Shown here one piece after another: positions 4,897 to 10,055 of a DNA stretch of 64,000 nucleotides (positions are counted from its first letter, which is position 1; each line of letters opens with the position of its first letter). The notes under the pieces are model-generated. The model worked only from the letters and a program-made list of their open reading frames with translations. It did not search any database and had not been told where the DNA came from. This stretch comes from an uncultured Fretibacterium sp. (GTDB lineage Bacteria > Synergistota > Synergistia > Synergistales > Aminobacteriaceae), in the NCBI GenBank assembly GCA_946186205.1, contig CAMHMH010000001.1:124001-188000 (forward strand), given 5' to 3'. A program made the translations under genes and the position numbers.

Positions 4897-6383
4897 TGCG
4901 CCTCGAAAATATCATCATACCCAAGCTCGAAGAAAATCCCTCAGAGAAGTGCTACTGGTGGGACGGAAAATGGCACACCCGGGAGAATCTTCTCTCACTC
5001 GCAAGCAACTGTGAGAATGTCTTGCGCGGCGCAGGATTTTCACGCGGCCAGAAGCTCGTTGTTATGCTCAGAAATTCACCGTTGATCCCGGCATTGTCAT
5101 TAGCAGTCTGGAAGCTCGGCGGAATCTTCTGCCCCCTCAACGAGAAAGCCGGCCTCGAATCTCTGACTGGGACTCTGAATCTCATTCAGCCTTTCGCGGT
5201 CATTGCTGAACATGAGATCCCCGAAATCGCTAAAGAATGGCCGTTCATTACGTGTTCGCTTGACAGTGTGAGTCTTCCTGCGTTCACGGGAAAAACTCAG
5301 GCTTCCGAATCTGATGACCTTGCTGTGATTTTCGCCACGTCAGGCACAACAGGACTCCCGAAAGCCGTACCATTAACACACGGCAACTTGCGCTCAAACT
5401 GTGAGGCAACCCTCGCAATGATTCCTTCTGTAACGAGTGCTGATACATTTTTGACGGTGCTGCCTAACTTCCATTCGTTTGGCTACACCGTAACAACCAT
5501 CATGCCGCTTACGATAGGCGGAAAAATTGCGATTGCTCCGTCGTTCCTTCCTCCCGCTGTAACAATAAGGGCGATAACAGAAGCAAAAATTGATGTCATG
5601 TTCGTAGTCCCGGCAATAATATCGTTCTTGCTGATGTCTGTTGAGAAAGGGAAAATGCCCGCAGAGCCTTTAGCGCGAATCAGAGTCATCTGCACGGGAG
5701 GCGACAAACTTAACCCGAACAATCACAAGCAGGCGTTAAAGTTATTGGGACGCGACATAATGGAGGGCTATGGACTCACGGAGACTTCACCGGTTATTTG
5801 TGTCAATCATGACTGCGAGACTCAGAAGACCGGAAGCATCGGGCCAGTCTTGCCGGGCTATGAATACAAGCTCAAGACTCGCGAAGGTGAGTCAACGAGT
5901 GACAAAGAGGGAGTCTTGTGGGTGAAAGGGCCATGCGTAACGCCGGGTTATTTGCACGCGCCGGAGATCACAGCAGAGAGATTTGACTCTGAAGGCTTCC
6001 TCAACACGGGCGACTATGTGAGGCTTGAGACACATGACGGTGAAGAGTACGTTTATGTTCTTGACCGCGTAACGGATATTATCATCGTGGGAGGCTTCAA
6101 CGTATACCCGCAGGAAGTCGAGAAGGTTTTAGCTGAACACCCTGCTGTACATCAGGCTGTTGTTGTGGGAATGCCTCACGAAATCAACGGGCAAATACCG
6201 AAGGCATATATACAGCTTGAGGACGGAGCAAAGGCAGACGAGCGAGAAATCATAAAGTACGCAAAGGAACATCTCGCGCACTTCAAAGTACCTAGAAGAG
6301 TCGAATTTGTTACGGAGTTCCCTCTTTCAGGTACCGGGAAAATTTTGAGGCGAGTCCTTCGCGACAGGGCAGCAGGGAAATAA
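4896..6383 (+). CDS. AMP-forming acyl-CoA synthetase, copy 2
   Basis: This 495-residue paralogue follows copy 1 with a TAATG overlap. It keeps all ANL motifs: ATSGTTGLPKAVPLTH, GYGLTETSP, NTGDY, DRVTDIIIVGGFNVYPQEVE and GTGKILRR. The two proteins share long blocks across both the large N-terminal and small C-terminal domains, so they arose by tandem duplication. Substrate-pocket segments between the P-loop and the adenine motif differ more, which suggests related but distinct acid substrates. No acyl carrier protein or thioesterase gene is adjacent. A rho-independent terminator follows. Confidence 0.87.
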   Translation: MRLENIIIPKLEENPSEKCYWWDGKWHTRENLLSLASNCENVLRGAGFSRGQKLVVMLRNSPLIPALSLAVWKLGGIFCPLNEKAGLESLTGTLNLIQPFAVIAEHEIPEIAKEWPFITCSLDSVSLPAFTGKTQASESDDLAVIFATSGTTGLPKAVPLTHGNLRSNCEATLAMIPSVTSADTFLTVLPNFHSFGYTVTTIMPLTIGGKIAIAPSFLPPAVTIRAITEAKIDVMFVVPAIISFLLMSVEKGKMPAEPLARIRVICTGGDKLNPNNHKQALKLLGRDIMEGYGLTETSPVICVNHDCETQKTGSIGPVLPGYEYKLKTREGESTSDKEGVLWVKGPCVTPGYLHAPEITAERFDSEGFLNTGDYVRLETHDGEEYVYVLDRVTDIIIVGGFNVYPQEVEKVLAEHPAVHQAVVVGMPHEINGQIPKAYIQLEDGAKADEREIIKYAKEHLAHFKVPRRVEFVTEFPLSGTGKILRRVLRDRAAGK

Positions 6384-6395
6384 CGTAAGAATTTT

Positions 6396-6430
6396 GCGGC
6401 GGTTAGTGCTTATGTGCTGGCCGCTTTTTT
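6396..6430 (+). terminator. Terminator after the acyl-CoA ligase pair
   Basis: GCGGC (6396-6400) pairs with GCCGC (6420-6424), with a further GU-containing inner helix AGTGC/GTGCT. A run of six T follows. It sits between convergent genes. Confidence 0.6.
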
Positions 6431-6481
6431 GTGGCAAAGGACGAGGCAGCACGGAATGTTCACATACTGCCCCGGTGAATG

Positions 6482-7336
6482 TTACTTTTCGGGCTTGAGG
6501 TGATAGAACGTATCGAACTGGTAATAAGGCTCCGAGAGTATTACGCCTTCAGGGACATCATGTCTTGTGCCTCCCTTGCGCTTGTGCTCGAACCAGAAGA
6601 CGACATCAGACCTTCCCGACGAAAGCATAGCGGCTCTTGCGTTCGACTCGATATTCTGGAGCTTGACATTGAGTCCCAAACGCCCGGCGATTTCCGCGAG
6701 TATTGCTGCGTTGAAACCTTCTGCTGAACCGTCCGGGGCTATGTAGTCGATCGGCGGCATGTCTCCTGTTACGGCTGCTTTGATTTCGGGGGCATCGGGA
6801 AAGTTCCTGAACATTATCGGGCTGTGCTGCTGCAAGTCGGGGTTAGTGATGTGTCTTTCCTCCATCACTGCCGTGTTGACTCCGAGAATATATTTCCCCT
6901 GAAGAGTTATGAGAGTCCCGTCGCGTTTCATCTCGGCTATAGTTTTGTCGAACGATTCGCAGAGTGCTTTGTGATCCTCGTTGAAGCCGAACGAAAGCAA
7001 ATAGGGATCCTTCGGAGTTATGACGATGCAGTTCACAGTGTAGCCGGGATTGGCATTGAGGAAATATTCTGCGACACTTTCGGGCATAAGTATCTCGTCA
7101 ATTTCTCCCGCATTGAGAGCCATAATCATTTGAGACAATGAGCGGTAAAAGAAAAATTGCGGCTTGTCCGGGTTGTTCGCGAGTATTACGGCATGGCCGG
7201 CACTGGCTATCATGCTGCTGAACTCTTCCGGCGTAACGTTGAGGCGTTCAACCATTCCGACTCTGTGTGTGTCTTCTGAAAACGCAGCGGGTGAAAAAAC
7301 GAGAAGCATTACGAGAGCGCATAAAAATTTTTTCAT
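6482..7336 (-). CDS. Periplasmic solute-binding-like protein, SBP_bac_3 halves in swapped order (paralogue 4)
   Basis: The ATG at 7336 is chosen over an in-frame upstream start because AAAGGAGG lies just before it and the upstream gene then ends 16 bases away. The product of 284 residues has a Sec signal peptide (cleavage near AFS-ED). Residues about 25-150 match the second half of an SBP_bac_3 domain: VGMVERLNVTPEEF, then FYRSLSQMIMALNAGEIDEI, PESVAEYFL and a closing MKRDGTLITLQGKYI. Residues about 185-280 match the first half: AAVTGDMPPIDYIAPDG, GFNAAILAEIAGRL, SSGRSDVVFW and LSEPYY. Normal family members have these blocks in the opposite order. It is probably periplasmic and ligand-binding. 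No permease or ATPase gene is nearby. It is last in a five-gene operon. Confidence 0.75.
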   Translation of the reverse strand: MKKFLCALVMLLVFSPAAFSEDTHRVGMVERLNVTPEEFSSMIASAGHAVILANNPDKPQFFFYRSLSQMIMALNAGEIDEILMPESVAEYFLNANPGYTVNCIVITPKDPYLLSFGFNEDHKALCESFDKTIAEMKRDGTLITLQGKYILGVNTAVMEERHITNPDLQQHSPIMFRNFPDAPEIKAAVTGDMPPIDYIAPDGSAEGFNAAILAEIAGRLGLNVKLQNIESNARAAMLSSGRSDVVFWFEHKRKGGTRHDVPEGVILSEPYYQFDTFYHLKPEK

Positions 7337-7352
7337 GAGTAACAATCCTCCT

Positions 7353-8219
7353 TTAATTTTCGTCAAATCTCAGATGCATGAATGTGTTCCATTCGAGATA
7401 TGGTTCTGAGATTAGGACTTCTTCAGGGACATCAAGATATTTGTCTGTCATCTTGCTGACCTCGTACCAGAAAACTACATCAGCTTTTCCCGAAACAATT
7501 GCGGCAGTCCTTGAGGCTGTGTCAACCTGAATTATATCAATGTTGAGTCTGAGTCGCCGTCCTATTTCCGCAAGTACCGCAGTGCTGTAGCCGGCAGGAA
7601 GCCCGGTCTCGTCAACAAAATCAACCGGCGGCAAGTCCCCAGTAACAGCAACTTTCACCGTTGGAGCGTCAGAATATTTTTCAAACTTGATACGATTCGA
7701 CTTCTTGCGCTCTTTCTTGTTGATTCCGTAAATGGCATCGTAAGTCTCATCTGGCGGAAAATTCTTGACGTACTTCTGAAAGAATCCTGCGAGCGTGAAA
7801 TCATTCCTCATTGAGATTATTGCGGAGTTCCAGCGGGCTAAAAGATTCCTTCTGCTATTCATGAAACCAAAGCAAAGAGTCATCTGCCCTGAGTTTGAGA
7901 TACAGCAAGGGACGTAATTCGGGTTAATCTTCATGAGATACTCAGCGACAAAATCAGGAAGTATCATCTCGTCAATATCCCCGCGAGACAAGGCCATCTG
8001 CATTTGAGTCAATGAGTCATAGAACCGCGCTTTGCTTTTCGTGTGATCGTCTCCGAGAATCGACCATCCTTGAGTCGCCCAAGTGTTACGCATGAGAGTC
8101 AGAAACTCTTCAGGTGTCGTACGCAATCGAGTCAGAAAGCCGACGTAATCATCTTCAGCAGCAAAAGCAATCCCGCAGAGCATTGCCGCAATCATCAACG
8201 CAAAAAATAATTTCCTCAC
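7353..8219 (-). CDS. Periplasmic solute-binding-like protein, SBP_bac_3 halves in swapped order (paralogue 3)
   Basis: A GTG start at 8219 is preceded by GAGAGGAG. The 288-residue product has a signal peptide ending AFA-AE. It has the same layout as its neighbours: first the block FLTRLRTTPEEF, FYDSLTQMQMALSRGDIDEM, PDFVAEYLM and FTLAGFFQKYV. Then follows VAVTGDLPPVDFVDETG, GYSTAVLAEIGRRL, VSGKADVVFWYE and LISEPYLEWNTF. The final DG-TL pair seen in the other copies is changed to DF-TL here, so the end of its C-half is slightly diverged. It lies 14 bases downstream of the next paralogue, in the same operon. Confidence 0.75.
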   Translation of the reverse strand: MRKLFFALMIAAMLCGIAFAAEDDYVGFLTRLRTTPEEFLTLMRNTWATQGWSILGDDHTKSKARFYDSLTQMQMALSRGDIDEMILPDFVAEYLMKINPNYVPCCISNSGQMTLCFGFMNSRRNLLARWNSAIISMRNDFTLAGFFQKYVKNFPPDETYDAIYGINKKERKKSNRIKFEKYSDAPTVKVAVTGDLPPVDFVDETGLPAGYSTAVLAEIGRRLRLNIDIIQVDTASRTAAIVSGKADVVFWYEVSKMTDKYLDVPEEVLISEPYLEWNTFMHLRFDEN

Positions 8220-8233
8220 GTTTTCTGCTCCTC

Positions 8234-9133
8234 TCAGTTGTGAATGTAGAAGTCAAGAAAATCACGGCTGAATATATTCCATCCCCATGATTTTCCCTTG
8301 TCAGGATTCCGGCGTATGTGAATGAATTTCTCCCAGTCGTAATATGTCTCAGACACTATGACTCCTTCGGGTATGTCCGGCTGAGTCGCAGAGCCTTTCA
8401 CAACCTCGTACCAGAAGACAACATCAGCTCGCCCCGACGCAAGAGCAGAACTTCTCGCGGCCGACTCGACATTCATCAGCTCAATGTTCACTCCGAGTCT
8501 TTTTCCGACTTCAGCAAGTACCGCTGTGCTGAATCCTGCGGGCGTTCCGTCATCGGCAATGAAATCGACAGGCGGCAGATCTCCCGTTACAGCAGCGCGA
8601 ATAGTCTGCCCGCAAACGGTCCCCCTTCGGGTGTCGGCTCCGTCAAATTTCGCAAACTCTACTGGCTTAGGGGGATTTATTCCGGCTCTGGCTAAATACA
8701 TTCCCTCAAGCGCAGACAGTGTCCAGTCATCGCGCATTGATGTTATTGCACGGTTGAATTTGTCCCGGAGCGATTCATTGTCCGCCCGGAAGCCGAATGC
8801 TAATCCCATTCCCTTTGAGTGAAGTATGAGGACTGATTCATATTCGGGATTCTGATTCATGAGATACTCCGCTGTAACTTCCGGCAAAACTATGTGCTTT
8901 ATTTCTCCCGCGTTAAGTGCCATCTGCAAGCCGTTCAAGTTTGGGTAGAATTTCACGCGCACTTCTAGAAGCTCATTGTTAGGGGCAAAAGATTTCTGCC
9001 ATTCCTGCGAGAATTGTTCCTCCGTTGAGTTCAGCTTCTCAAGCATTCCCAGATTCAGCACGCGCTTTTCGAGACCGTATGACTCAGCGCACAGCACACA
9101 AATTAACGCGAGCGCAAAAATTAATCTCTTCAC
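8234..9133 (-). CDS. Periplasmic solute-binding-like protein, SBP_bac_3 halves in swapped order (paralogue 2)
   Basis: The GTG at 9133 is preferred: the signal peptide begins there (VKRLIFALALICVL) and the previous gene ends two bases upstream. An ATG at 9154 would overlap that gene and add seven charged or polar residues. The mature protein has LGMLEKLNSTEEQF, YPNLNGLQMALNAGEIKHI, PEVTAEYLM and a MRDDWTLSALEGMYL block. This is followed by AAVTGDLPPVDFIADDG, GFSTAVLAEVGKRL, ASGRADVVFWYE and VSETYYDWEKF. The C-terminus is about 20 residues longer than in the siblings and ends in an aromatic-rich stretch. No lipobox is evident, so it is predicted soluble in the periplasm. Confidence 0.74.
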   Translation of the reverse strand: MKRLIFALALICVLCAESYGLEKRVLNLGMLEKLNSTEEQFSQEWQKSFAPNNELLEVRVKFYPNLNGLQMALNAGEIKHIVLPEVTAEYLMNQNPEYESVLILHSKGMGLAFGFRADNESLRDKFNRAITSMRDDWTLSALEGMYLARAGINPPKPVEFAKFDGADTRRGTVCGQTIRAAVTGDLPPVDFIADDGTPAGFSTAVLAEVGKRLGVNIELMNVESAARSSALASGRADVVFWYEVVKGSATQPDIPEGVIVSETYYDWEKFIHIRRNPDKGKSWGWNIFSRDFLDFYIHN

Positions 9134-9134
9134 G

Positions 9135-10055
9135 TTATTTTGACCTTCCCACAACTAAATCTGTGTCCCATTCGTAATAAGGCTCTGAGAGGATTACACC
9201 TTTTGCGGGCGAGTCGACCATTACGCTTTTGAGATTCTTCTTGAGCTTCTTGGGAGTCTGTATGCCCTCTGTGTTGCGATACCAGAAAACGACATCCGCG
9301 CGTTCTGAGGCAAGAGCCGCTGACCTTCCGCCGGAGTCTACGCTGATTACACGAATGTTTCGCTTGAGACGCTTCCCGATTTCCGCAAGTATCGCTGTGT
9401 TGTAGCCTGTTGGCCTTCCGTCTGCCGCAATAAAGTCGATGGGCGGCAAGTCTCCCGTTACCGCGACTTTTATCGGCTTTGAGTCTTTGAACTCGGTGAA
9501 CTTTACTTCCTCAGGGTCATTCGCTCCGACATTGGTTATGAATTTCTCCTGAAGCGTCATTAATGTTCCGTCTTTCTTCATGGCCTTTATTGCCTCGTCA
9601 AAATCTTTCTTCAGTGCGGTGTTTCCTGCCTTGAATCCGAATGATATTGTTGACGGCATCATGTTCAGCGAGAATTGAATCTCGTAATCGTTCGGGTTGT
9701 TCGCAAGCAGGTACATCACTACAGGCTCAGGAAGCACAAACTCATCAATATGACGAGCGCGAAGAGCCATCAGCATAGCCATCAGTGAGTCGTAGAAATG
9801 CACTACCCTTCTTGCCCTCACAAGCTCCGACAAAAAGCCCTCTAACAAGTCGTAGTCTTCCCATTCCTGCTTGGCTGACTCTTCCGTGATGAGCGGTGTT
9901 AATGCCTTCCGCAGATCGTCGAGTGCCTCTTGAAATTCTCCCTCAGTCGTGCCCAAGTATGTCAGGATTCCCGTGTCAACTTTGTCATTCACAGCTGCCA
10001 TTGCGCTGACAGACATAATCATTACGAGAACGAACGCGCATAATACCTTCTTCAT
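9135..10055 (-). CDS. Periplasmic solute-binding-like protein, SBP_bac_3 halves in swapped order (paralogue 1)
   Basis: This 306-residue protein has a signal peptide cleaved near AMA-AV. The first block is ILTYLGTTEGEF, FYDSLMAMLMALRARHIDEF, PEPVVMYLL and MKKDGTLMTLQEKFI. It carries an insertion of about 25 charged residues before the FYDSL motif. The second block is VAVTGDLPPIDFIAADG, GYNTAILAEIGKRL, ASERADVVFWY and LSEPYYEWDTD. It is the first of the four paralogues behind the RsbW-like gene, which ends 12 bases upstream. Function is inferred as ligand binding; amino acids are the usual ligands of the unpermuted family, but the ligand here is unknown. Confidence 0.75.
   Translation of the reverse strand: MKKVLCAFVLVMIMSVSAMAAVNDKVDTGILTYLGTTEGEFQEALDDLRKALTPLITEESAKQEWEDYDLLEGFLSELVRARRVVHFYDSLMAMLMALRARHIDEFVLPEPVVMYLLANNPNDYEIQFSLNMMPSTISFGFKAGNTALKKDFDEAIKAMKKDGTLMTLQEKFITNVGANDPEEVKFTEFKDSKPIKVAVTGDLPPIDFIAADGRPTGYNTAILAEIGKRLKRNIRVISVDSGGRSAALASERADVVFWYRNTEGIQTPKKLKKNLKSVMVDSPAKGVILSEPYYEWDTDLVVGRSK

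Follow-up and report, generated by a model that had tools for sequence, protein, structure and literature searches.

Four tandem substrate-binding proteins with swapped halves in an uncultured Fretibacterium sp., probable natural circular permutants serving one ABC importer

Four exported binding proteins encoded in tandem

The window analysed here is a stretch of 64,000 nucleotides from an uncultured Fretibacterium sp., a rumen-type member of the Synergistaceae. It carries four consecutive minus-strand genes, which we call W1 to W4, for proteins of ~285-306 amino acids (aa) resembling the substrate-binding proteins (SBPs) of ATP-binding cassette (ABC) transporters. Their open reading frames (ORFs) span 6482-7366, 7353-8219, 8234-9154 and 9135-10055, and each protein has a Sec-type signal peptide of its own, as judged by eye. 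Below, L1 denotes the first half of a canonical SBP_bac_3 protein (lobe 1) and L2 the second half (lobe 2).

9135..10055, minus strand: W4, predicted permuted SBP of 306 aa, with signal peptide, L2 and then L1
9534..9983, minus strand: lobe-2 half of W4 with the C-terminal helices, residues ~25-174
9144..9473, minus strand: lobe-1 half of W4 (VAVTGDLPP ... LSEPYY), residues ~195-304
8234..9133, minus strand: W3, predicted permuted SBP, start probably at 9133 (ORF open from 9154), L2 ~8693-9064, L1 ~8279-8611
7353..8219, minus strand: W2, predicted permuted SBP, L2 ~7767-8150, L1 ~7368-7667
6482..7336, minus strand: W1, predicted permuted SBP, start probably the ATG at 7336 (ORF open from 7366), L2 ~6887-7267, L1 ~6491-6793

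The halves occur in reversed order

A first-pass annotation of this DNA had proposed that each protein holds one full SBP_bac_3 domain with its halves exchanged, and that the exchange recurs in every copy and is no local error. Both claims have held. SBP_bac_3 (PF00497) is essentially the sole Pfam family found in W1-W4, with 44-60 bits against a gathering cut-off of 26.4 (E 2e-11 to 2e-16) and two matching stretches per protein. These do not follow the canonical N-to-C order of the profile but its reverse: profile positions 1-62 land at residues ~185-256, in the C-terminal half, and in a PF00497 scan of the source genome itself the C-terminal part of the profile lies upstream of the profile start in three of the four proteins. 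Full-length NCBIfam models of SBPs cross in the same manner on W4 (TIGR01096 147-250 on residues 76-173, NF008426 31-105 on residues 183-257), as does a profile search of the PDB, where query 61-150 corresponds to AncQR (4zv1) 140-230 and query 174-270 to AncQR 13-104. All of these independent profiles are crossed.

As a control, hidden Markov models (HMMs) were built from 21 canonical SBPs only and scored unrotated and rotated. The rotated model gave an equal or better score for all 14 permuted proteins, whereas the six canonical SBPs scored 206-279 bits with the unrotated model and 115-157 with the rotated one. Because the profiles and this control agree, we regard it as confirmed, at the level of sequence, that the swapped order in W1-W4 is neither chance nor local error.

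The AlphaFold2 model of W4 (pLDDT 82, pTM 0.78) has the strand and helix order of a canonical SBP cut, that is, rotated, at the first hinge, and not the canonical topology. Foldseek searches with this model matched type-II periplasmic binding proteins (PBPs) at E ~1e-6, and none of the 50 best matches gave a good superposition on canonical SBPs in sequence order (TMt <=0.47, root-mean-square deviation (rmsd) 7-12 Å). The signal peptides, the pTM and the PBP matches predict the exported, bilobed fold of an ABC receptor. We take the chain order to be shown by the sequence profiles, with the models as support. The chain would begin with lobe 2, cross a single time to lobe 1 via a long strand and the C-terminal helices, enter by way of a new linker the half of lobe 1 that is N-terminal in canonical SBPs, and end at the first canonical hinge-strand crossing, so that Venus-flytrap closure would involve one covalent hinge crossing and not two.

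L2-L1 is the unit, also in fused arrays

Three permuted groups were found in the source genome by the PF00497 scan and inspection. These are single proteins of ABC type, one of which (L022:5623-6420) lies inside an SBP-permease-ATPase operon (L022:4076-6420); the subfamily of the window proteins, named here after its VTGDLPP motif, with ten members and a further, identical copy carried by contig C10; and a fusion of 2015 aa (L021:2799-8846) consisting of seven L2-L1 units and then an ABC permease domain. Canonical SBPs are present in the same genome, for example at L030:8137-8925.

Such fusions, in which permuted units are joined to BPD_transp_1 permeases, were collected from the source genome and its relatives. 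In the 13 proteins the order is strictly L2-L1, occurring 1, 3, 4, 6, 7, 8 or 12 times; all of them begin with L2 and finish with L1, and a permease region comes next wherever the contig is not cut short. A sister genus has forms with two units. A predicted ABC protein of 3249 aa (L121:3857-13606, G005:C39) places twelve permuted SBP units before its permease region. A 214-aa relative in the source genome (L029:8109-8753, G000:C1 ~822 kb), whose gene immediately follows that of a ribose-type ABC permease, has kept L2 and lost most of L1.

Canonical L1-L2 order also arises in these arrays, across the borders between units, and domain swapping is a feature of T. maritima ArgBP. Both points favour a reading in which the L2 and L1 of one chain stay unpaired, and canonical domains form instead across unit borders or by swapping between chains. 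The arrays argue against it. The linker from L2 to L1 is constant (17.9±0.8 aa, n=76), whereas that from L1 to the following L2 varies (14.8±6.0 aa, range 7-46, n=64; Levene p 8e-11); in canonical Synergistota SBPs the L1-L2 linker is mostly ~6 aa. Pairwise distances within single proteins correlate far better between L1 and the L2 of its own unit (r=0.87) than between L1 and the L2 of the next (r=0.35), and from linker constancy and this co-evolution we conclude that L2-L1 is the unit. The pairing of Arg and Asp ligand residues did not discriminate between the possible partners of a half (Fisher p 0.06 and 0.78). An AlphaFold2 model of a two-unit array fragment (pLDDT 91.5) compares with ArgBP or AncQR in canonical order at ~23-27% identity and an rmsd of 16-26 Å, which indicates that L1 does not pack against the L2 of the following unit. 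Canonical pairing across array units was thus ruled out by linkers, co-evolution and the array model, and the L2 and L1 of one unit are predicted to pack together. Single-unit proteins, moreover, hold just one L2 and one L1, and the monomer model of W4 reaches its pTM of 0.78 by itself. Unpaired halves are therefore improbable.

The window cluster could also be a canonical tandem SBP polyprotein that has decayed or split, with stops at the hinge. A canonical tandem SBP (L1-L2-L1-L2) does exist in the phylum, and twice in the genome, reading through the stop between neighbouring genes gives a match in canonical order. Against this, every window protein starts at L2 with its own signal peptide, conservation of the subfamily extends over 164 distinct proteins, single-copy genes with one L2 and one L1 among them, and the arrays all have L2 first and L1 last. 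We consider a split polyprotein barely credible.

In ~20 related loci, ABC permease and ATPase genes follow the SBP genes

Noting that no ABC permease or ATPase is adjacent, the first-pass annotation had suggested that these proteins are sensors rather than transport proteins. The observation is correct inside the window and fails in related loci. We examined 77 VTGDLPP loci (permease, protein cluster 13; ATPase, cluster 14). The SBP genes form runs of 1-5, and in ~20 of the loci the permease and ATPase genes come shortly after them in the same orientation, often with a gap of 4-13 bp to the final SBP gene. The permease occurs in 40 of the 43 genomes of the genus, as a single copy in 38; in the two genomes with two matches, both lie at or near contig ends. 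SBP matches reach 13 per genome, against one permease copy.

The source genome keeps a matching permease and ATPase on another contig (G000:C2 ~99.5-101.3 kb), unlinked to W1-W4. At locus L048 of a close relative, a single stretch comprises a regulator, four SBPs, a small gene, the permease, the ATPase and two glycerol genes; the window corresponds to its first part and C2 to its second. The comparison places a breakpoint next to W1, from which the window is collinear with L048 up to ~15 kb, and it attributes the lack of ABC genes beside the cluster to a rearrangement. Misassembly at this point is possible instead; the conclusion would be the same either way. Upstream, a further gene heads what looks like a single operon with W4 to W1, the genes overlapping or being spaced by 12-14 bp.

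6383..6482: rearrangement breakpoint, from the comparison with L048
10068..10694, minus strand: gene for a 208-aa protein, 12 bp before W4, heading the apparent five-gene operon

The 208-aa protein had no family match in Pfam or NCBIfam, and it is kept beside permuted SBP clusters (protein cluster 2, 16 loci).

Genes upstream in related loci encode a dCache-HAMP-SpoIIE phosphatase, an RsbW-like HATPase_c_2 protein and STAS proteins, and the ATPase of cluster 14 itself has a C-terminal stretch with a weak, RsbW-like HATPase_c_2 match. At L055:1163-12468 and similar loci, a SpoIIE phosphatase, an RsbW-like HATPase, STAS and a STAS-APH fusion share one run of genes with permuted SBPs and an ABC transporter whose ATPase has such an RsbW-like C-terminal stretch.

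The SpoIIE, RsbW-like and STAS genes beside related clusters would suit stand-alone periplasmic sensors, that is, orphan receptors reporting to a signalling partner, as would the lack of an ABC gene next to W1-W4 and the loss of the usual amino-acid ligand residues (see below). However, the ~20 related loci and an operon on a Selenomonas plasmid put the SBPs directly before permease and ATPase, the source genome has retained matching ABC genes, parted from the cluster by the rearrangement, and the window proteins have no fused transmembrane or signalling domain. The argument from the missing neighbour was dropped after the comparison of loci, and we regard a sensor role as unlikely.

Distribution and origin

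An HMM bridging L2, linker and L1 was run against 188 Synergistota genomes. Every genome of the window's genus (43) and of a sister genus (four) matched strongly, as did sporadic genomes elsewhere. Follow-up confirmed single ABC-type permutants in three more genera and, in two, fusions of a single L2-L1 unit to a permease; one genome has a second fusion into which the ATPase is joined as well. Of the matches near 1e-10 in other genomes, those inspected proved to be canonical SBPs. Within this set, the VTGDLPP subfamily is confined to 45 genomes from two genera. Named relatives are Synergistaceae or uncultured Fretibacterium metagenome-assembled genomes, with ruminants as the main source.

Outside Synergistota, a single VTGDLPP gene was found, SELR_RS16275 on a plasmid of the rumen bacterium Selenomonas ruminantium, with permease and ATPase genes behind it; in plasmid searches for permuted relatives, this operon stood alone among the matches listed. 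The corresponding region of pSRC1 (L166:3608-6291) encodes the subfamily member, a lipoprotein, along with its ABC partners. This distribution suggests horizontal transfer between rumen bacteria.

In a tree of rotated sequences the permuted proteins fall into three clades with good support (ABC-type, VTGDLPP and fusions). A single origin of the permutation is not rejected (approximately unbiased p value, p-AU, 0.44) and appears in 22% of bootstrap trees. The first-pass annotation had proposed that the swapped order came from duplication of a domain and subsequent loss of the outer halves. This is a possible route; the canonical tandem SBP of the phylum, however, sits among canonical SBPs in the tree.

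Permuted proteins as probable receptors of a shared importer

We conclude, with considerable confidence, that W1-W4 are natural circular permutants of class-F SBPs and alternative receptors of one ABC importer. As secreted SBPs with the SBP_bac_3 (class F, type II) fold, several of them would serve a single permease and an ATPase with an RsbW-like C-terminal stretch in an importer of PAAT type. In relatives, 3-5 SBP genes often stand directly before permease and ATPase and behind a partner-switching module made up of SpoIIE phosphatase, RsbW-like kinase and STAS protein; in the source genome, the rearrangement would have split the permease and ATPase genes from the SBP cluster. Some points weigh against this conclusion. 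In the source genome the SBP genes lie apart from the ABC genes, so that their joint function is deduced from relatives; the pocket is devoid of the usual amino-acid ligand residues, so that some copies have possibly lost transport function; and the halves could possibly pair in trans, as domain-swapped dimers. More tentatively, we could speculate that Synergistaceae, and by transfer Selenomonas, run ABC importers with permuted single-hinge receptors, in clusters or in chains of up to 12 domains per permease, coupled to an Rsb-type switch through the RsbW-like domain of the ATPase.

Class F SBPs such as HisJ, GlnH, ArtJ and AncQR (4zv1) match both halves of the window proteins significantly, and the ABC partners of the relatives (PAAT permease and ATPase) are alike. 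In contrast to them, W1-W4 have swapped halves, a predicted single covalent crossing between the lobes instead of two, and a new linker from the C-terminal helix to the first strand, ~18 aa in the arrays and longer in the window subfamily. Circularly permuted Venus-flytrap receptors are rare in nature. The literature we searched, largely without subscription papers, yielded one described natural SBP permutant, of another SBP class; neither permuted class-F SBPs nor SBP arrays beyond two were found described there. That permutant is Tp0684 (MglB-2) of T. pallidum, a class B ligand-binding protein proposed as 'Type Ic / Cluster Bc', for which glucose binding and a conformational change are reported despite the permutation (PMC4990184). 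It is likewise a bilobed SBP, but there three N-lobe strands have moved and a fourth hinge crossing was added (PMC4990184), whereas the window proteins match the class F profile, have the whole first half moved and would have lost a crossing; they do not belong to Type Ic. The arrays resemble Lactococcus GlnPQ, in which the tandem SBP_bac_3 domains SBD1-SBD2 are fused N-terminally to the permease (PMC8025302, PDB 6h30); GlnPQ has two domains in canonical order, whereas the arrays here reach 12 units and keep the permuted register.

The family as a whole, free, clustered or fused and including apparently working transporters, is a natural experiment on the hinge: it allows one to ask if two covalent hinge strands are required for a flytrap to close and to dock. 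The fused receptor domains, in chains of 1, 2, 3, 4, 6, 7, 8 and 12, take the two-domain GlnPQ case further and are relevant to how several receptors share one translocator. The permutation itself stays hidden, as databases would label such proteins ordinary SBPs.

Ligand pocket and neighbouring genes

The window subfamily has neither the carboxylate-binding Arg of the T-x-x-R motif nor the lobe-2 Asp, whose position is occupied by Pro109; both residues are retained in the ABC-type permuted SBPs. R244 is conserved in 162 of the 164 subfamily proteins and P109 in 160, and R244 aligns with a position at which HisJ-like proteins touch the side chain of their ligand. In five genomes, the source genome included, one paralogue lies directly behind a 2-hydroxycarboxylate (2HCT) transporter, with malic enzyme also there in four of the five. 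The ligand may then be something other than an ordinary alpha-amino acid, although the indication is weak; given the absent Arg and Asp, the near-invariant R244 and the 2HCT and malic enzyme neighbours, our guess is an anionic ligand, for example a small carboxylate.

Malic enzyme, 2HCT transporter, a permuted SBP and an AEC-type transporter also make up an apparently identical stretch of several kilobases on two contigs of the source genome (G000:C2 ~8-26 kb and G000:C10 ~44-62 kb; L026, L027), either a recent duplication or assembly redundancy. In other loci, genes resembling M15 D-Ala-D-Ala dipeptidases recur between or beside permuted SBP genes, and also near the Selenomonas operon:

L069:7300-7995, L071, L023:13270-13959, L166:238-1053: M15 D-Ala-D-Ala dipeptidase-like genes

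These neighbours of other copies hint at another ligand, and the copies may differ in what they bind.

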